Positions 1 to 8,242 of a DNA stretch of 11,263 bases are shown here, piece after piece. The position numbers and the translations under genes are program-made. The stretch lies in the NCBI GenBank assembly GCA_002440045.1, contig DJRI01000161.1:1-11263 (forward strand). The letters run 5' to 3'. How positions within the stretch are numbered: the first letter of the stretch is position 1; the number at the start of each line of letters is the position of its first letter. A model generated the notes under the pieces. It was not told the DNA's origin. It saw nothing but the letters and a program-made list of their open reading frames with translations, and did not search any database. This DNA is from Ruminococcaceae bacterium UBA6364. Lineage in GTDB: Bacteria; Bacillota; Clostridia; Oscillospirales; Acutalibacteraceae.

Positions 1-576
1 GTTGTCGGACAAAATATTGTCCCCCGTTTTTGTGAGCGGCGGCAAGCTGTCAATTGTCGGCTGGGTATTAGAACTTGTATCGCGCGCCGTGGTCTCTTTG
101 CCGCCCGAAGAAGTTGACGTCTTCTTTCCGGTTGTGCTTTCAAGAGCAGCCTCGGTAGTACTGTCAAAATCACCTGTTGGGTCTTCAAACCTGATTGAAA
201 AATCAACATTTTCAGTTGCAGGCAACGTTGACGGTTCGGTGTTTGCCGGTTTTGAATGAAGGATTTTTACAATACCGATTATTCCGAGTGCCGTAACAAG
301 AACGCCGAGCACACAAACCGTGATTATTATTGCGGCTGTACGCTTTTTTGCTTTGTCGGTTTCGGCAGACCGCTTTATCGGCGGAGCTTTCGGCGCGGTG
401 CTTGAAGGTGTAATACTGCCTTCGGGTTTTAAAGACTCTGCTTCGCGCTTTTCTTCCCCGAGGGTTTCGCCGCTTTTTGAGCCGTCATTTAAATTTTCGC
501 CGCCGTTCTTAATTTCTTCGGCGTTATTATCGTTTTCAAACGGCTCCGGTTTGTTATTTTTAAAATTATCGTCCAC
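1..576 (-). CDS. Single-pass membrane protein, C-terminus beyond the window edge
   Basis: An open frame of 192 codons runs from a GTG at 576 off the left edge with no stop. The start is chosen because GGAGGA (583-588) lies 6 bases upstream. Residues 1-79 are hydrophilic and rich in Asn, Glu, Lys and Gly. Residues 81-106 (start AAIIITVCVL) form one strong membrane segment, preceded by Lys75, Lys77, Lys78 and Arg79. By the positive-inside rule the N-terminus is cytoplasmic and the C-terminus outside. Residues 110-185 are a Ser/Thr/Glu-rich linker typical of surface-exposed, possibly glycosylated, stalks; any folded domain lies beyond the window. There is no N-terminal signal peptide. It follows the 72-residue small protein on the same strand, and only about 40 bases separate that gene's terminator from this start, with no convincing promoter between. 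I do not recognise the family, and the visible part gives no enzymatic motif. Confidence 0.8.
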   Translation of the reverse strand, partial: MDDNFKNNKPEPFENDNNAEEIKNGGENLNDGSKSGETLGEEKREAESLKPEGSITPSSTAPKAPPIKRSAETDKAKKRTAAIIITVCVLGVLVTALGIIGIVKILHSKPANTEPSTLPATENVDFSIRFEDPTGDFDSTTEAALESTTGKKTSTSSGGKETTARDTSSNTQPTIDSLPPLTKTGDNILSDN

Positions 577-609: not shown

Positions 610-649
610 AAAAAATAAAAGGGAATGTGACCAATGTCACATTCCCTTT
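610..649 (-). terminator. Intrinsic terminator after the 72-aa small protein
   Basis: A perfect 14-bp stem (arms 618-631 and 636-649, loop 632-635) is followed on the minus strand by TTTTATTTTTT (down to 610). The stem contains GGGAATGTG, also found in the hairpin after the sister gene (1073-1095). It should terminate most transcripts from the 72-aa gene. Read-through is the only evident way to transcribe the membrane protein downstream. Confidence 0.85.
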
Positions 650-687
650 GGTGAAAACTATTGCAATAATTCACACACAACCGACGA

Positions 688-906
688 TTAGTCGAGGTTG
701 GGCAAGTTGCTTGCGATAACATCAGCCAACTGCTTGATAACATCGCCAACATAGGGTAAATCAACAAAAGCTGCAAGATAGCCTGAATAGCTAATGATGT
801 TGCCGTCTTCGTCATAGTTAGGAGAAATAACTGAAGAAAGAGCCTGTGCAACCTGGTTGAGATCTACGCCATAGTTTCCAAGAATTTCCCAAATAGCCTG
901 TAACAT
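688..906 (-). CDS. Small acidic protein, 72 aa, paralogue A
   Basis: The start is an ATG at 906 with AGGAGG (915-920) 8 bases upstream; the stop is TAA. It is clearly homologous to the 66-residue product at 1134-1334. Shared features are an identical N-terminus MLQAIW, then NYG-x-D, a repeated A-x-A pattern, a central acidic loop, LA-xx-VD-x-P-xx-GD-xx-K, and a C-terminal Leu-Asp. By eye about 40% of aligned residues are identical. The layout suggests helix (2-28), acidic loop (29-42, with DEDGN at 32-36), helix (43-66). There is no Cys, signal peptide, double-glycine leader or membrane segment. Net charge is about -8 (one Lys, nine acidic residues). Function is unknown. The strong RBS, the private promoter and terminator, and the duplication argue that it is a real, highly expressed product. 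A secreted leaderless peptide, a signal or a small cytoplasmic regulator are all possible. Confidence 0.85.
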   Translation of the reverse strand: MLQAIWEILGNYGVDLNQVAQALSSVISPNYDEDGNIISYSGYLAAFVDLPYVGDVIKQLADVIASNLPNLD

Positions 907-942
907 TTATGTGACCTCCTTTCACTTCTAATCTTCGGGCAT

Positions 943-1014
943 ATAATATCACACTTTTTTAACATTATTGTTCCGAAAAAGAAATAAAACGAGATTTTTT
1001 TAAGAATTCTTAAG
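943..1014 (-). promoter_or_regulatory. Promoter and regulator box for the 72-aa small protein
   Basis: Read on the minus strand, an extended -10 TGaTATTAT lies at 943-951. Seventeen bases upstream the -35 hexamer is poor (ACAATA). A conserved block GTTTTATTTC-N5-CGGAA lies at 971-990. Further upstream is a direct repeat of TTAAG (1000-1004 and 1010-1014 on the plus strand, 10-base period), inside the palindrome 1000-1013. The sister gene has the same elements at almost the same spacings. A weak -35 with a conserved upstream repeat suggests an activator-dependent promoter. The expected transcript start is near 936, giving a leader of about 30 bases. Confidence 0.65.
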
Positions 1015-1025
1015 ATTTATAAGAC

Positions 1026-1054
1026 TTAAAAACAGAAAAATCGCCGTACGGCGA
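1026..1054 (-). terminator. Intrinsic terminator after the 66-aa small protein
   Basis: The perfect 14-base palindrome TCGCCGTACGGCGA (1041-1054) is followed on the minus strand by TTTTTCTGTTTTT. This is a conventional intrinsic terminator separating the two small-protein cassettes. It lies downstream of a second hairpin (1073-1095) and ends only about 12 bases before the regulator box of the next cassette. Confidence 0.75.
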
Positions 1055-1072
1055 CAGAATTGTTTGAATAAA

Positions 1073-1095
1073 GGGGAATGTGAAACACATTCCCC
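1073..1095 (-). other. Conserved GGGAATGTG hairpin in the 3' region of the 66-aa gene
   Basis: A perfect 10-bp stem (1073-1082 and 1086-1095, loop of 3) is followed on the minus strand by only TTTATTCAAAC, so it is a weak terminator. Its stem sequence GGGAATGTG is the same as in the terminator of the sister gene (618-649). It may be the original terminator of the duplicated unit, or a conserved 3' stability or binding element. Confidence 0.65.
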
Positions 1096-1133
1096 CCGCT
1101 GAGTGTAAGACGATTGCACGCCTCAGACCAAAA

Positions 1134-1334
1134 TCAGTCGAGCTGAATATTGGGAATAGCGCTTGCAAAAGCTTTGAGGATATCGCCGATAACCGGGAAA
1201 TCAACTAACTGGGCAAGGTTACCTTCATACTCATTCGTATCGGGATTGAGCCAGATAAGAGTTTTCATAGCTTCAGCGATTTTAGTTACGTCAAGACCAT
1301 AGTTGGCGAGAACGTCCCAAATTGCCTGTAACAT
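1134..1334 (-). CDS. Small acidic protein, 66 aa, paralogue B
   Basis: The start is an ATG at 1334 with AGGAGG (1343-1348) 8 bases upstream; the stop is TGA. The coding start and leader are nearly identical in DNA to those of the 72-aa gene (GTGAAAGGAGG, TAAATGTTACAGGC). The protein begins MLQAIWDVLANYGLD and has a central acidic segment (residues 30-38, NPDTNEYEG). It continues with a second likely amphipathic helix containing LVDFPVIGDILK (43-54) and ends in Leu-Asp. It has no Cys, signal peptide or membrane span. Net charge is about -6. It differs from its paralogue mainly in a shorter loop and in residues 17-31. It sits in a separate transcription unit between its own promoter (1371-1443) and two hairpins (1073-1095, 1026-1054). 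The family is not recognised and no function can be assigned. Confidence 0.85.
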   Translation of the reverse strand: MLQAIWDVLANYGLDVTKIAEAMKTLIWLNPDTNEYEGNLAQLVDFPVIGDILKAFASAIPNIQLD

Positions 1335-1370
1335 TTAGACGGCCTCCTTTCACTCCTTATATTTGAGTTC

Positions 1371-1443
1371 ATAATAACACATATAAAACGATTTATTTTT
1401 CCAAAATCGAAATAAACTAAAAGTTTTCTTAAGAAAATTTAAG
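1371..1443 (-). promoter_or_regulatory. Promoter and regulator box for the 66-aa small protein
   Basis: On the minus strand an extended -10 TGtTATTAT lies at 1371-1379, with a poor -35 (AAAATA). The block GTTTATTTCGATTTTGGAA is at 1399-1417. The direct repeat TTAAG-N5-TTAAG is at 1429-1433 and 1439-1443 (plus strand), overlapping the palindrome TTTTCTTAAGAAAA (1424-1437). From the -10 hexamer to the conserved block there are 22 intervening bases, as at the sister promoter. To the repeat there are 52 here against 51 there. The predicted transcript start is near 1364. Confidence 0.65.
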
Positions 1444-1463: not shown

Positions 1464-1485
1464 AAAAACCGTGCAAAACGGTTTT
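1464..1485 (-). terminator. Intrinsic terminator of the ytvI-cpsB unit
   Basis: The minus-strand stem AAAACCG (1479-1485) pairs with CGGTTTT (1465-1471), with a 7-base loop, followed by one more T. The stem begins inside the stop codon of the phosphatase gene, so translation ends at the hairpin itself. A longer imperfect pairing with GCGG/CCGC outside it is possible. The T-run is short, so efficiency may be moderate. Confidence 0.55.
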
Positions 1486-2236
1486 AAAACCGCGATATAG
1501 GAGCAAAACGGACGGGAGTTATCTTTTTGTTTTCAAGAAGCGCCGCAGGATTTGTATTTAAAATTCTGTCAAGAAGCCGCCTGTCAACTGTGTCGGGATA
1601 ATTTTCGGTCATACTGACAAGCGCCGTGTTGCGCCGCCTGTCGCTGTGAGCATCGCTTCCCAAAAAATCGACATAACCGCTTTTAAGCATTTTTAAAGCA
1701 ACAAGGCTTTCGGCTTCACCGAACGCACCGAGCGGCGAAGCGCCGTTCATCTGAAGGAGCGCGCCGTTTTCGGTAAGGCGCTCTAAAGCTGAAATATCTT
1801 CAATAACAAAGCCGTATCTTTCGGGGTGCGCTATAACGGGCGTAAGTCCGCATGACTCAAGATATTTGCACCACGAAATAACGTCCTCCTCACGGGTTTT
1901 ATAAAAATCAAATTCTATTAAAATGTAGTCGGTGCCTGCAAGCGTATAAGGTTTAAAATATTTTATATCAAAAATATCGTCGTCACAAAGAATCTCAAAG
2001 CCCGTTTCAAGCTTGAGGTCGATGCCCTCATCTTCCAAAACCTCTCTTAACTGCTCGGTTTTGTAATTACGCCTGTCATACAGCTCCTCCGCACTGTCCC
2101 AATAGACAATGTGCGGCGTGAGGAAAAGAGTATTTGTGCCTGTAGCTTCTGCGGTGCGGCACATTTCAACGCTCGTTTCAAAGCTGTCGGAGCCGTCGTC
2201 AAGATGCCAAAGCGTGTGCGAATGTAAATCAGTCAA
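1484..2236 (-). CDS. PHP-family phosphatase of the CpsB/CapC/YwqE type
   Basis: The predicted product is 250 residues, close to the usual CpsB/YwqE length. These are manganese-dependent protein tyrosine phosphatases of the PHP fold, best known for dephosphorylating BY-kinases in capsule and exopolysaccharide control. Metal-ligand motifs are in order: DLHSH (3-7), TPH (40-42), GFE (79-81), HPER (137-140) and GSDAH (193-197). The start is a TTG at 2236: AAGGTGA lies 5 bases upstream and the result MTDLHSH matches family N-termini (typically M-x-D-x-H-x-H). A longer frame reaches an ATG at 2302 but would overlap the upstream gene by 74 bases and add an unconserved basic leader. With the TTG start the genes overlap by 8 bases, implying translational coupling to the permease. 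No BY-kinase or polysaccharide gene is in the window, so the substrate is open. Histidinol phosphatase and other PHP hydrolases are less likely. Confidence 0.85.
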   Translation of the reverse strand: MTDLHSHTLWHLDDGSDSFETSVEMCRTAEATGTNTLFLTPHIVYWDSAEELYDRRNYKTEQLREVLEDEGIDLKLETGFEILCDDDIFDIKYFKPYTLAGTDYILIEFDFYKTREEDVISWCKYLESCGLTPVIAHPERYGFVIEDISALERLTENGALLQMNGASPLGAFGEAESLVALKMLKSGYVDFLGSDAHSDRRRNTALVSMTENYPDTVDRRLLDRILNTNPAALLENKKITPVRFAPISRF

Positions 2237-3443
2237 CGTGCTCACCTTCTGTTTGCCCGGATGCACCACTTTCACAGTCGGCGCATTCATTCGGCGCTTC
2301 AACCGTGAGTGTTACTGCATCTTCAGATTTTTTGCCACCGAAGATTCCCTCGTCATACATAAATTTAAGAATTATTACCGTAAACGGCAAAATGATTATA
2401 CCGAGAGCGCCGAGGAATTTTGCGCCGATAAACATTGCCATAACAGTAACGATTGCGGGAAGCCCCGCCTGATTTGCAACAAGCTTAGGCTCGATTATCT
2501 GCCTTATAACGGTAATCACGGCATAAAGCACAAAAAGTCCGATTCCGAGCTTGGGGCTGCCGAAGAATATGTTGTAAAGCGCCCACGGAATAACAACCGT
2601 GCCTGTGCCGAGAACGGGCACAATATCAACAACGCATGTTACAAGCGAAATAATGGCAATATAGCCGCCGGTGTAAACGCCGATTATCTTCATAAGATAA
2701 AGTCCCAAAAACATTTCGCCGAACGTTATGAGCATTATCGTCGCATACGCTTTAAGCATTTTGCCGACACCGTAGGTTACGGTGTGCTTTGCCGAAATAA
2801 CGTGCGCGCGTTTTTTCTCGGGTATCATTTTGAGAATAAGGTCGCGAATATCTTCATAGTCGGCAGTCATAAAGAAGCACGAAATTATTGTAACAAGAAA
2901 CGCAAGTATTGCGGACGGCACACTTTTAAGAACGCTCCAAGCGCCGCTTAACGGCCCTGAAATCACCGAAAAATCGAAGCTTCCGTCGGGCTTTCCGCTG
3001 CCGTCAAGGTTTGCAAAAAGCTTTGTTACCATTGTTGAAGCACTGTCGCGTATTGCTTCGGGCAATTTGGCGACAACATCGAGCGAAAACTTTTCAATCG
3101 TATCAAACATCTCTTTAAGCGACGAGAACTGCCCGAACAAAAACGAGAAGAACTCGCGAAGCTCATAAAACGTTATGCCGCAAATGGCAACAATAAGCGA
3201 TACTATAAGTATTACTATAAGCAGCACCAGCGCAAACGAGATTGGCCCGTGGGCTTTAATGTGAAGCGCCTTTTTCAGCTTGTTAATCGGCTTTTGTAAA
3301 AACACGGCAAGCGCCGCGGCAAAAAGGAACGGGAAAATATAGCCGAAGGCATATTTAACCGTGACGCAGTATATGCCGACAATAACGGCAAAATACAAAA
3401 AGTTAATTAAAAATTCGCGCCTGCTTTCAACTTTATTCAGCAT
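2229..3443 (-). CDS. ytvI: AI-2E family permease, YtvI-type integral membrane protein
   Basis: A 404-residue polytopic membrane protein of the AI-2E transporter (UPF0118) family. The N-terminal hydrophobic pairs (about 12-50 and 68-92), the hydrophilic middle (93-165) and the C-terminal cluster of membrane segments (about 170-195, 228-290, 298-318, 330-362) follow the family layout. VVDIVPVLGTGTVVIPW (271-287) and IIEPKLVANQAGLPAIVT (316-333) match its most conserved region and resemble the sporulation protein YtvI of Bacillus. The start is an ATG at 3443 with AGGAGG 6 bases upstream; the ATG at 3449 abuts the AGGAGG and is unlikely. The C-terminal tail (365-404) is hydrophilic and acidic and contains ECADCES. 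The gene is first in a two-gene unit with the phosphatase and diverges from hom. In this family substrates are unsettled: some members move AI-2 or ions, and YtvI's role in sporulation is undefined. Confidence 0.85.
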   Translation of the reverse strand: MLNKVESRREFLINFLYFAVIVGIYCVTVKYAFGYIFPFLFAAALAVFLQKPINKLKKALHIKAHGPISFALVLLIVILIVSLIVAICGITFYELREFFSFLFGQFSSLKEMFDTIEKFSLDVVAKLPEAIRDSASTMVTKLFANLDGSGKPDGSFDFSVISGPLSGAWSVLKSVPSAILAFLVTIISCFFMTADYEDIRDLILKMIPEKKRAHVISAKHTVTYGVGKMLKAYATIMLITFGEMFLGLYLMKIIGVYTGGYIAIISLVTCVVDIVPVLGTGTVVIPWALYNIFFGSPKLGIGLFVLYAVITVIRQIIEPKLVANQAGLPAIVTVMAMFIGAKFLGALGIIILPFTVIILKFMYDEGIFGGKKSEDAVTLTVEAPNECADCESGASGQTEGEHVD

Positions 3444-3483
3444 AATCATCCTCCTGAAAACACCAAAACTTTTTCCAAATTAT

Positions 3484-5030: not shown

Positions 5031-8000
5031 TTATTTTGCCTGTGCGGCTTTCTTTTCAGCTTCCTGCTTTTCGAGCTTTTTCTCTTTTCTCTTATAAACA
5101 AGGAACCAAATCACGCCGATTGCAACAAGTACGCCTATTACTATACCGAGTATTGAACCCGAATTGTCGGGAACGTCTATCGTAACAGCGTCATAGTTGA
5201 AATAGAAGCAGCCGTCAAATGCGTTATCGTCATAAGAAGTGAGGTTTGAATTAACAACAAACTCACGAAGCTCGTTGCATGAGCCGAATGCATAAGAGCC
5301 GATTTTTCTTACGCTTTCGGGGATATTGACGCTTCTTAATGCGTCGCAATCAAAGAAAGCTTCGTCGCCTATTTTCTTAAGTCCGTCGCAGAATGTTACG
5401 GAAGTAAGACCGTCGCAGTCATAAAATGCTCTCTCGCCTATTTCTGTTATACCGTCGGGAATTTTGTATTCACCGTCTTTGCCCTGCGGGAACAAAACAA
5501 GCTTGTTCCATTCGCCGTTTTCGTCGGCGGCAACAACAGCACCGTCAAGCGTTTTGTAAGCGGCGTTGCCTTCGCTGATATTTACAGCTTCAAGATTAAG
5601 GCATCCGAGGAAGCTTAACGGGTCAAGCACGGCAAGCGTTGCGGGAAGAGTAATTTCTTTAAGAGCCGCGCAACCGCTGAAAGCATATTTACCTATTGAT
5701 TCAACCGAGCCGAGCGTAACGCTTTCAAGAGCGGCACAGCCGGCGAACAGGTCTGTCGGTATTGCGGTAACACCTTCGGGAAGAACAATGTTTTTAAGAG
5801 CGGCACAGCCTTTGAACGCCGCACTGCCGAGAGTTGTGAGGGCAGAACCTTCAGAGAACTCCGCTTTTTCAAGAGTTGCAACATTTTCAAATGCGCAATC
5901 GTCAATCGTTACAACGTTTTTGGGTATTGTAACGTTTTTAAGAGAAGCGCCCTTAAATGCCTCTTTGCCGATAAACTCAAGCGAAACGGGAAGAATAACA
6001 GCCGTTACGGTTTCATTATTAACCGCATTGTCGGCAACAGCCGTTGTGCCGTCGGCAACAGCAAGCGTTGCAACGTTGCCCGACACTCTGTAAAGAACGC
6101 CGCCTGCATAAACAGCGCCGCCAGCAGAGTTTTTGAACCAAGCCGTTGAATCAAGCGCGGCTTCTTCAATATTTCTTAAAGTCGAGGGGAAGCTAATTGA
6201 TGTAACGCCGTCGCAAAGGGTAAATGCGTCGGCACAAATAACCTCGGTACCCTCGGCTACGGCAACAGCCGAAGCGCCGCTTGCGGCAAGAATTACAAGC
6301 TCTTTTCCGTCTTTTGAATAAATGCCGGAAACAGTGTTTTTAAAGAATGCGTTATCTTCGGCAACTTTAATGTCTTTAAGAGCAGAGCAGCCCGAAAAAG
6401 CGGAAGCCGAGAAATTTTCAAGCGATGCGGGAAGAAGTACGCTTTCAAGGCTCTTGCAGAAAGCAAACGACTCATCGCCGAGCTTGCTGACCTTTTCGCC
6501 GAGCGAAAGCTCTTTAAGGTTTTCGTTGCCGTAGAAAGCGCCCGTGTCAATTCTTACAACGCCGTTGCCTGTTTTAACGCTTGTAAGTCCTGCGTTTTTA
6601 AAGGCATATGCGGCAATATCGCGAAGCGTATCGGGAAGCTCTATTGAAGAAAGAGCCTTACAGCCTTCAAAAGCCGAAGCGCCTATATATGTAACGGCGC
6701 CGCCGAGCTTAATCTCTGAAAGAGCGTCGGCATTTTTGAATGCGCTGTTGTTGATTGTGGTAACGGACTCGGGCAGGCTGATTGATTTAATCTTTGAATT
6801 TTCAAAGGCGTATGCGCCGATTGTTTTAAGCGCCGTATCCTCGGTGAAAGAAATACTTTCGATGTCGGAGCCGCGAAGAGCGCCGTTTCTTATTTCTTCA
6901 ACCTTTTGCGGAAGCTCAAAAGCGCCTGTTTTTGCCGCGGGGAAGGAAATTAAAACCTTGCCGTTTTTAGAATAAAGAACGCCGTCCTGAGCCGAGAAGT
7001 TTTTATTCTTTTCGTCAACCGTAAAGCTTTCAAGCGTTTCGATATTTGCAAATACGTTTGAGCCGAGGTTTTTCATATTTTTGCCGAAGTCCATGGTTTT
7101 GAGCTTTGTGTCGGCAAATGCTCTGTCTTCAATGTCGGTAATTGTTTCGCTGAGCTTTACATCGGTAAGAGATGTGCAGCCCGCGAAAGCTTCATAGCCG
7201 ATTGAGGCAACCGTACAACCCGAGAAATCAGCCTCTTTTAATGAAGAGCAACCCTTGAAGGCGCCCGCGTCGATAAGCGACACGGCAGAGCCGCAGGTGA
7301 TTTTTTCAAGGTTTGTGCAGTTCTGGAAAGCATAAAGGCCAATCTCTTCAACGTCGTCGCCGAAAGTGACTGTTTTTATGTCGGTGCAGCCGATGAATAC
7401 ATATTTTTCGATTATTTCGATGCCCTCGCCTATAACAAGGTCTTTAACGTCGCCCTTGTAAGAATAAAGGACTCTGCCGAGGCTGAGAGCGCCGTCGGGA
7501 GCGTTATTTTCCCATGCAGTGCCTGTGAAAGCATCTTTTGCAACGTTTTTAAGGTTTTTGTGGTGTTTGACTTCTGCAAGAGCAGAGCAACCGTAGAAAC
7601 ATCTTTCGGGGATTGCGGTAACGGAATCGGGTATTGCGTATTCGGTCATCGAAACACAGCCCTCAAAAGCGGACATACCGATTTTTGTAAGAGAGTCTGC
7701 TTTTTTAACTTCCTTAAGGGCCGTGCAGTTCATAAAAGCGCCGGGCTTTAATTCTGTTACGGCCGATGTGAGTTTTACTGTCGTTATGTTTTCGTTGCCC
7801 GCAAAGCACCCATTACCTACGGATGTGAGGGACAACCCGCCAATCTTTGACGGAACCGTTACAACGGTGTCGTTTCCGGTGTAGCCTACAATCTCTGCTT
7901 CGGAGTCGTTGTTGATTCTGATATACTCAAAATCGCCTTCGGCTCTTTTGTTAAGAAGCTCCTCTTCGGAGAGTGTAAGCTGTTCTCCGAGTCCGTCGCT

Positions 8001-8093
8001 GTCGGCGAATGCCGAAATCGGGACGGCAGCCGTAAACACGATTACCATTAAAATCGCAAGAATACAGCTGAGCGGCTTTTTAAATGCTGTCAT
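5031..8093 (-). CDS. BspA-like leucine-rich-repeat surface protein with membrane anchor
   Basis: A 1020-residue exported protein. Residues 1-30 are a signal peptide: Lys5-Lys6, a hydrophobic core, and likely cleavage at AFA|DS. Residues 31-80 match the BspA-type N-cap (FEYIRINN..EIVGYTGND). About 32 repeats of the LRR_5/Treponema-type pattern follow, with period about 23 and core I-xx-x-AF-x-G/N-C-xx-L. They are interrupted by inserts of the GVLYSKNGKVLI kind near 200-215, 359-395, 578-612, 655-690 and 838-885. Residues 979-1000 form a membrane span, followed by a Lys/Glu-rich cytoplasmic tail (KRKEKKLEKQ). There is no LPxTG motif. The topology is an outward-facing repeat solenoid anchored at its C-terminus; family members bind host proteins, other bacteria or polysaccharides, but the ligand here is unknown. 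I chose the ATG at 8093 because AAGGGA lies 11-12 bases upstream; the ATG at 8105 lacks spacing to that site and would add MRYF. It is a single-gene unit. Confidence 0.9.
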   Translation of the reverse strand: MTAFKKPLSCILAILMVIVFTAAVPISAFADSDGLGEQLTLSEEELLNKRAEGDFEYIRINNDSEAEIVGYTGNDTVVTVPSKIGGLSLTSVGNGCFAGNENITTVKLTSAVTELKPGAFMNCTALKEVKKADSLTKIGMSAFEGCVSMTEYAIPDSVTAIPERCFYGCSALAEVKHHKNLKNVAKDAFTGTAWENNAPDGALSLGRVLYSYKGDVKDLVIGEGIEIIEKYVFIGCTDIKTVTFGDDVEEIGLYAFQNCTNLEKITCGSAVSLIDAGAFKGCSSLKEADFSGCTVASIGYEAFAGCTSLTDVKLSETITDIEDRAFADTKLKTMDFGKNMKNLGSNVFANIETLESFTVDEKNKNFSAQDGVLYSKNGKVLISFPAAKTGAFELPQKVEEIRNGALRGSDIESISFTEDTALKTIGAYAFENSKIKSISLPESVTTINNSAFKNADALSEIKLGGAVTYIGASAFEGCKALSSIELPDTLRDIAAYAFKNAGLTSVKTGNGVVRIDTGAFYGNENLKELSLGEKVSKLGDESFAFCKSLESVLLPASLENFSASAFSGCSALKDIKVAEDNAFFKNTVSGIYSKDGKELVILAASGASAVAVAEGTEVICADAFTLCDGVTSISFPSTLRNIEEAALDSTAWFKNSAGGAVYAGGVLYRVSGNVATLAVADGTTAVADNAVNNETVTAVILPVSLEFIGKEAFKGASLKNVTIPKNVVTIDDCAFENVATLEKAEFSEGSALTTLGSAAFKGCAALKNIVLPEGVTAIPTDLFAGCAALESVTLGSVESIGKYAFSGCAALKEITLPATLAVLDPLSFLGCLNLEAVNISEGNAAYKTLDGAVVAADENGEWNKLVLFPQGKDGEYKIPDGITEIGERAFYDCDGLTSVTFCDGLKKIGDEAFFDCDALRSVNIPESVRKIGSYAFGSCNELREFVVNSNLTSYDDNAFDGCFYFNYDAVTIDVPDNSGSILGIVIGVLVAIGVIWFLVYKRKEKKLEKQEAEKKAAQAK

Positions 8094-8151
8094 AAAATAA
8101 CGCATCCCTTCAAATAATTTCTGCGGAATATACCAAATTACAGATAGAGTT

Positions 8152-8180
8152 ATTATAATATAAACCCCCTCGCTTGTCAA
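8152..8180 (-). promoter_or_regulatory. Perfect consensus sigma-A promoter of the leucine-rich-repeat gene
   Basis: On the minus strand TTGACA (8175-8180), a 17-base spacer and TATAAT (8152-8157) match the consensus exactly. The transcript start should be near 8145, giving a leader of about 50 bases to the ATG at 8093. The -35 lies inside the inverted repeat 8166-8203. Confidence 0.85.
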
Positions 8181-8203
8181 GCAATACGCCGACTTGCGAG
8201 GGG
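8162..8203 (-). terminator. Inverted repeat after folD: terminator overlapping the next promoter
   Basis: The 8-base arms GCGAGGGG (8196-8203) and CCCCTCGC (8166-8173), with GAC/GTC pairing further in, form a hairpin on the minus-strand RNA. It is followed by GTTTATATTATAAT. It lies 40 bases after the folD stop and is the only terminator candidate for that operon. The T-run is poor, so some read-through into the next gene is likely. Because the -35 of that gene is in the loop side, the DNA palindrome could also be an operator. Confidence 0.5.
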
Positions 8204-8242
8204 TCTGCACGAGCTTAATGTTTAACAAAATTTCAGACCGAT

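Follow-up and report, generated by a model that had tools for sequence, protein, structure and literature searches.

Short acidic peptides of gut Clostridia and a predicted surface-anchored partner protein are encoded in a recurrent two-gene module

In lantibiotic operons the peptide gene is followed by a downstream gene for an immunity lipoprotein, which is lipid-anchored on the outer face of the membrane. The beta-class phenol-soluble modulins of staphylococci are anionic, leaderless peptides of about 45 amino acids, which form amphipathic helices and are strongly expressed. Leaderless bacteriocins are short, helical and made without a leader; some act as two-peptide sets and most keep the formyl-Met (PMC6131525). 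A conserved domain is assigned to only 6.1% of the small-protein families in a global catalogue (PMC11364881). Families without a domain are hard to study, since nothing points to a partner.

The peptides described here resemble each of these systems in part. Like the leaderless bacteriocins of the aureocin A53, lacticin Q and enterocin L50 types, the peptides of our window (the whole stretch of DNA analysed, one entire contig of 11,263 nucleotides from an 81%-complete genome) are short, helical and without a leader. Their charge differs, Cereucin V carrying +3 to +4 among the table rows of PMC6131525, whereas the peptides here range from -3 to -11. Moreover, secretion and immunity genes are known for leaderless bacteriocins, while the peptide genes here hold a vertically inherited position beside the S10 operon. 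Peptides of the genera g44 and g98 are similar in kind to the beta-class phenol-soluble modulins. In contrast to the modulins, the members scanned have no Pfam match, no linked ABC exporter was recognised and a predicted surface-anchored partner is present; the staphylococcal haemolytic-peptide family of Pfam was unlisted when 20 members (E<=1) and 10 distant members (E<=10) were searched by hmmscan. The gene order is like that of lantibiotic peptide and immunity-lipoprotein operons, but no modification enzymes were seen, there is no leader and the domain of the partner has no convincing match.

We propose that an abundant, leaderless, amphipathic acidic peptide acts at the membrane or outside the cell together with a rarer surface partner, and that the two peptide genes of the window arose when the leading gene of a two-gene module was duplicated in tandem in this lineage only. 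To this reading as a whole, export and function of the peptide being inferred from sequence, we assign a joint probability of roughly 45%. The pair of peptide and partner appears to be an undescribed gene pair of gut Clostridia, and a literature search among open-licence papers brought up neither the peptide family nor the pair. The features of the window are as follows.

1134..1334, minus strand: 66-aa acidic peptide gene, the upstream paralogue and first in transcription (ORF, homologues, purifying selection in the family)
688..906, minus strand: 72-aa acidic peptide gene, the downstream paralogue (ORF, paralogue of the 66-aa gene, AF2 pLDDT 83.4)
1371..1411, minus strand: promoter of the 66-aa gene, TTC-N7-GAA block and extended -10 (alignment and pattern)
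943..983, minus strand: promoter of the 72-aa gene, TTC-N7-GAA block and extended -10 (alignment and pattern)
1343..1350, minus strand: Shine-Dalgarno sequence AAAGGAGG of the 66-aa gene (sequence)
915..922, minus strand: Shine-Dalgarno sequence AAAGGAGG of the 72-aa gene (sequence)
about 1072..1097, minus strand: terminator-like hairpin 3' of the 66-aa gene, 12 pairs followed by TTTATT (folded 3' region)
651..676, minus strand: conserved 26-nt 3'UTR hairpin GTGTGAATTATTGCAATAGTTTTCAC (12 of 22 genus genomes, pairs kept)
618..649, minus strand: intrinsic terminator separating the 72-aa gene from that of the partner (terminator scan; stem covaries in relatives)
1..576, minus strand: partner gene P_up with GTG start, one hydrophobic span and a Thr/Ser-rich stalk, its 3' end cut by the contig end (start placed by eye from a Shine-Dalgarno sequence at 584-588)
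1484..2302, minus strand: CpsB/PHP-family gene, conserved neighbour (PF19567, 4.4e-47; synteny)
2229..3449, minus strand: YtvI / AI-2E-family membrane protein gene, conserved neighbour (TIGR02872, 2.6e-60, PF01594; synteny)

The initial annotation had described a tandem pair of paralogous genes of 66 and 72 codons without giving their strand; both frames are on the minus strand. The pair is real. The two proteins are 46% identical over 65 residues with an E-value of 1.2e-12 in a whole-genome search, so that the resemblance is not a matter of chance. They are acidic (net charges -8 and -6) and free of cysteine, as had been claimed, and also leaderless: a leader or signal peptide is absent from the pair and its relatives, which instead start directly with an amphipathic helix (judged from the sequence rather than by a signal-peptide program). 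The motifs MLQAIW, NYG-x-D and VD-x-P-x-x-G-D-x-x-K and the Leu-Asp end are all present in the pair, but the supposedly invariant MLQAIW does not extend beyond it. In a 20-row alignment of the family M1, L2, G13 and L44 are invariant, and W6, N11, D15, A20, G42, P51, G54, F60 and A61 are conserved at 90%. The AF2 model of the 72-aa protein is compact (pLDDT 83.4), with a predicted helix-helix-beta hairpin-helix order, which supersedes the previously suggested helix-loop-helix fold; the beta hairpin is missing from shorter relatives. The helices of the peptides are amphipathic and the N-terminal one bears a well conserved Trp. A winged-helix reading of the model was put aside because of the strong acidity of the protein and because no winged-helix structure was prominent. 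Fold matches to chaperonins and PE/PPE were weak and, like the PDB sequence matches, left unused.

A homologue search, the check put forward in the initial annotation, revealed relatives of the 66-aa protein in 18 of the 22 genomes of the genus (E<=0.1; weakest best match 5.7e-6). None was returned by this search for G201, G202, G210 and G218; a divergent 75-aa member in G201 was reached later via the promoter pattern. Two copies are found in the window's genome and in G200, and a single one in the other 16 of the 18, which argues against a two-component pair as a general rule. A 20-member profile retrieved 215 proteins at E<=0.001 among 5.8 billion, and Pfam domains are absent from the best 120 of these 215; from another search the best 120 of 138 matches were used. 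The 14 named relatives are called Oscillospiraceae or Clostridia bacterium, nine of the titles giving a ruminant gut sample and five no host. Run on 398 family genomes, the profile matched 13 (E<=0.01): seven belong to the own genus and the other six, all weak, to five genera. Start motif and promoter block both accompany small ORFs in three of these six (G076, G337, G056); the matches in G370, G098 and G276 fall inside unrelated long ORFs. A single-protein search of genome contigs gave no match, the relatives being reached by alignment only. Peptides of 46-54 aa are similar to those of 66-75 aa over 29 residues (hhalign probability 90, E 1.6e-6), and the link to peptides of 35-49 aa is weaker (profile comparison, probability 75, E 2.7e-5).

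Purifying selection, another of the earlier suppositions, is evident in close pairs of the family, with dN/dS values of 0.08-0.41 (Nei-Gojobori, listed pairs with dN below 0.35). The window pair itself is given no value, because its synonymous sites are saturated (pS 0.80). The view that the peptides belong to no recognised family also stands: Pfam, NCBIfam, PHROGs and PADLOC hold no family above threshold for them, and the anti-phage defence models of PADLOC gave 0 families at E<=0.1 for both window peptides. DUF5665 (19.2 bits, cut-off 27), HTH_15 of MerB and PqqD were sub-threshold and taken as chance. A tree was drawn from 47 rows (hand-picked from the best 120, plus the window pair and four locus rows) and has few columns and many open forks; its end branches measure 2.57 for the 72-aa and 1.11 for the 66-aa protein and 2.9 and 1.44 for those of G200, at a median of 0.046. 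The longest end branches are held by both tandem duplications in the genus, i.e. the window pair and L014/L032 of G200. The first peptide of G200 entered alignments A1 and A2 by match coordinates, with the last residues of its 76 missing.

The lasting partner of the peptide gene, missed by the initial annotation, is the gene immediately downstream, and as a module the two genes are well supported by sequence comparison. In the window, P_up leaves the contig where its conserved C-terminal domain begins. Alignment shows P_up to be homologous across the genus loci, G076, G337 and G043. Of 300 genomes of the family, 25 are matched by a P_up profile at E<=1e-6, and 14 still at E<=1e-13. P_up is predicted to be a membrane- or lipid-anchored extracytoplasmic protein with a Thr/Ser-rich stalk; lipobox-like N-termini were recognised by eye in g98, g76, C52 and G200. 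Anchor and stalk, together with a dockerin-like stretch in two paralogues, suggest that the conserved domain lies outside the cell. These secreted-looking paralogues (L191, L192) have the P_up-type domain fused to the stretch, which was seen by eye; the Pfam dockerin model matched 1 of 14 P_up members. Searches with the domain against Pfam, NCBIfam and PDB sequences gave nothing convincing, nor any match to a known immunity family. Weak partial matches in single members, for example to Mfa1 fimbria (1.3e-4), SP0191 lipoprotein (4e-4), EF-hand and dockerin, were not used, and with PADLOC two of four partner proteins gave weak partial matches only.

The module was assessed by the presence of a small, acidic, Cys-free ORF with a strong Shine-Dalgarno sequence ending <=350 nt upstream, acidity itself being a criterion. 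Such an ORF precedes 26 of the 39 partner-family genes, many of them kin from one genus, as compared to 0 of 276 other non-overlapping long ORFs in the fetched loci. At E<=1e-10 the count is 26 of 33. When overlapping ORFs are included it is 26/40 versus 1/299, that one lying out of frame over a P_up gene, and with the charge criterion lifted 26/39 versus 29/276, these control ORFs all having a charge of 0 to +6. Thirteen partner-family genes do not score under the strict criteria. Six are weak matches (L181, L184, L186, L187, L188, L190), two are misses of the criteria (G098, with a 47-aa acidic ORF and a weaker Shine-Dalgarno sequence, and L035, with a known peptide) and five have no adjacent small ORF, namely G056, where peptide gene and partner are on separate contigs, and the paralogues G175:C29, G175:C45, G205:C17 and G205:C3. 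G060 and G013, outside the 39, also lack an upstream small ORF. An out-of-sample test on 394 genomes of the order, eight of them with a match and all eight from this family (genera g1 and g98), yielded a small acidic ORF of 35-48 aa at 4/4 newly met P_up genes. The window's own genome contains a second module on contig C52 with a 49-aa peptide. Modules are found in the genera g1, g44, g76 and g98; peptide length varies from 35 to 90 aa, and the net charge of -3 to -9 is acidic in all 21 modules examined. The g98 peptides (36-48 aa, acidic, Cys-free) show little sequence similarity.

A terminator-like hairpin and T run lie between the peptide stop and the P_up start in all 21 modules examined, and the observed hairpin energy was reached by 0 of 160 shuffled versions of 16 of these regions. 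From the end of the stem to the P_up start codon there are 19-46 nt in seven g98 modules and C52 (8/8) and 41 nt in the window. This leaves little promoter room, and in these modules P_up therefore most likely depends on read-through.

According to our preferred explanation, the first gene as a strong cassette would produce a short, leaderless, acidic and amphipathic helical peptide. The hairpin behind it would keep the second gene low, by read-through or, where there is room, from a weak promoter, and one transcript would yield much peptide and little partner. The second gene would encode a membrane- or lipid-anchored protein presenting its conserved C-terminal domain outside on the Thr/Ser-rich stalk. 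Since this product is often a lipoprotein without cytoplasmic part, direct cooperation would require the peptide to arrive at the membrane or outside the cell; the peptide would be exported without leader or inserted into the membrane and act there with the surface partner, which may serve as receptor, chaperone, anchor or self-protection/immunity protein. The compact AF2 fold of the 72-aa protein speaks against this, as it would suit a cytoplasmic protein too.

Separate cassettes with promoter, strong ribosome binding site and terminator had been postulated for the two peptide genes, and this arrangement was recovered: the promoters by comparison, the Shine-Dalgarno sequences by reading and the terminator-like hairpins by scan or, for the 66-aa gene, by folding. 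The latter hairpin (1072..1097) is absent from the list of the terminator scan, and a sigma-70-type promoter scan of the window gave no site for either peptide gene, its four sites lying elsewhere. The extended -10 fits the housekeeping -10 TATGnTATAAT given in PMC6873888; the Pcauto promoter of acetogens, described there as an (A/T)G repeat, was not accepted as the same. In the pattern scans TTC and GAA were fixed beforehand. The strict pattern occurs in the genus at five sites away from the peptide gene (G202, G203, G205, G206, G209), and across 398 family genomes at 43 sites in 27 genomes versus 1 control match. Of the 43 sites 27 were read, and many precede other genes, which by eye encode transketolase, secreted proteins and proteins of the arginine pathway; at L147, L150 and L152 no ORF was obtained. 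The sites elsewhere in genus and family rule out a private switch of the peptide gene. In genus g128, 4 of the 5 genomes with a site carry three to five sites each before varied genes. The block is also located upstream of an unnamed membrane protein of ~260 aa (L087, L102, L103 in G205, G206, G209). Other small amphipathic-looking ORFs lie behind this promoter class at L158, L163 and L153 (G394, G048, G190), and the two scanned, L158 and L163, have no Pfam match.

Codon adaptation to ribosomal genes is 0.64-0.85 for the peptides at 9 scored genus loci, compared to medians of 0.45-0.55 for the other long ORFs there; the best single other ORF reaches 0.69-0.82 and equals or exceeds the peptide in several loci. 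At two g76 loci the values are low (0.41 and 0.49), below the median of other long ORFs. The scored set consists of relatives' loci, with the window's own genes and L037 outside it. The strong expression signals on which the initial annotation relied are supported by Shine-Dalgarno sequences, promoters and a codon adaptation above the median in 9/9 scored genus loci.

In a special case of our explanation the peptide would be a leaderless bacteriocin, or would resemble a surfactant, and the anchored protein would confer immunity to it. The peptides are leaderless, Cys-free and amphipathic, their sequence diverges while their physico-chemistry stays constant, and a surface-anchored protein adjoins them. 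However, leaderless bacteriocins are typically cationic and 21/21 examined peptides are anionic, no ABC exporter was recognised beside the peptide genes in the window (the flanks of relatives being compared with the window), and there is no family match. The constant position next to the S10 operon throughout the genus is not what bacteriocin islands show, and this, like the exporter result, weighs on our preferred explanation too. We regard the special case as somewhat unlikely.

The constant neighbourhood allows another interpretation. All 17 fetched genus loci show a homoserine-dehydrogenase-like ORF (by eye), then divergently ytvI, cpsB and the peptide gene, with P_up next on the same strand; ribosomal L3 or S10 is listed afterwards in 14 of them. 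The order ytvI, 90-aa peptide, P_up and S10 operon is kept in G076 and G337, and ytvI, 54-aa peptide and P_up in G043. Proteins of the AI-2E family are reportedly antiporters or AI-2 exporters. The peptide could be cytoplasmic and, bound to the inner membrane face, act as a small regulator of the YtvI/AI-2E-family protein encoded next to it, or regulate other proteins of the envelope; its N-terminal amphipathic helix with the well conserved Trp and the compact predicted fold would suit this role. Against this, the module is found away from ytvI in g98 and on contig C52 of the window's genome. One neighbourhood is common to four g98 loci, and flank comparison over 1.5 kb showed that G289, G098, G730 and C52 have the P_up gene alone in common, so that the pair recurs in different places. 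Furthermore, 26 of 30 family ytvI loci read with 1.5-kb flanks are without a member of the peptide family, whereas P_up follows in 25 of 26 peptide loci found via peptide, ytvI or promoter, the exception being G056. A regulator of YtvI is therefore unlikely in our opinion. Further along the window (5031-8228, minus strand) a BspA-type leucine-rich-repeat protein of 1065 aa with a hydrophobic C-terminal segment is encoded.

The transcript itself may have a second function, its 26-nt 3'UTR hairpin making the short mRNA also a regulatory RNA or protein binder. GTGTGAATTATTGCAATAGTTTTCAC is present as a single copy per genome behind the peptide gene in 12 of 22 genus genomes (<=2 mismatches), identical in 11 of them and absent from the backwards control. 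The sole variant (G217) differs at two positions with all pairs kept. The adjoining terminator stem varies, four pairs having compensatory changes, and synonymous sites are far diverged between groups; in the window the hairpin stands behind the downstream 72-aa gene only. On the other hand, it was not found in the other 10 of the 22 genomes at the same threshold, including the peptide-holding G057, G203, G204, G207 and G212, and inspection by eye showed none downstream of the peptide genes in G076, G337, G043 and G056, so that it is not part of the module's core. It has no Rfam match, and a DNA-binding site would look alike; a dif-like site was provisionally set aside in view of the dif sequence. 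A dual-function transcript hence seems improbable to us. Leader-ORF attenuation, by which the small ORF and the terminator would mainly control the surface protein, is very improbable. It is favoured by the order of promoter, short ORF, terminator-like hairpin and partner, with hardly any space for another promoter in 9 modules, but opposed by a product of 35-90 aa under protein-level selection in the genus, by its duplication in the window with own promoter and terminator, and by a codon use typical of abundant proteins at the genus loci scored.

The sequences themselves show that the genes exist, are conserved and evolve under purifying selection within the genus, and that the module and the hairpins are real. 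A bolder version of our explanation, in which gut Oscillospiraceae-type Clostridia export a leaderless acidic peptide in bulk, sense or hold it by their own surface-anchored partner and, in one subgroup, use the ultraconserved 3' hairpin of the transcript for an RNA-level function, would be a long shot. Gene order and its recurrence in several neighbourhoods connect a peptide family that evolves fast and has no annotation to a single family of surface proteins, and this connection can be tested directly. The 26-nt 3' hairpin, with one copy per genome, offers another well-defined target. Should the peptide indeed leave the cell without a leader, the leaderless peptides would gain an anionic branch, and one would have to ask which exporter serves it.
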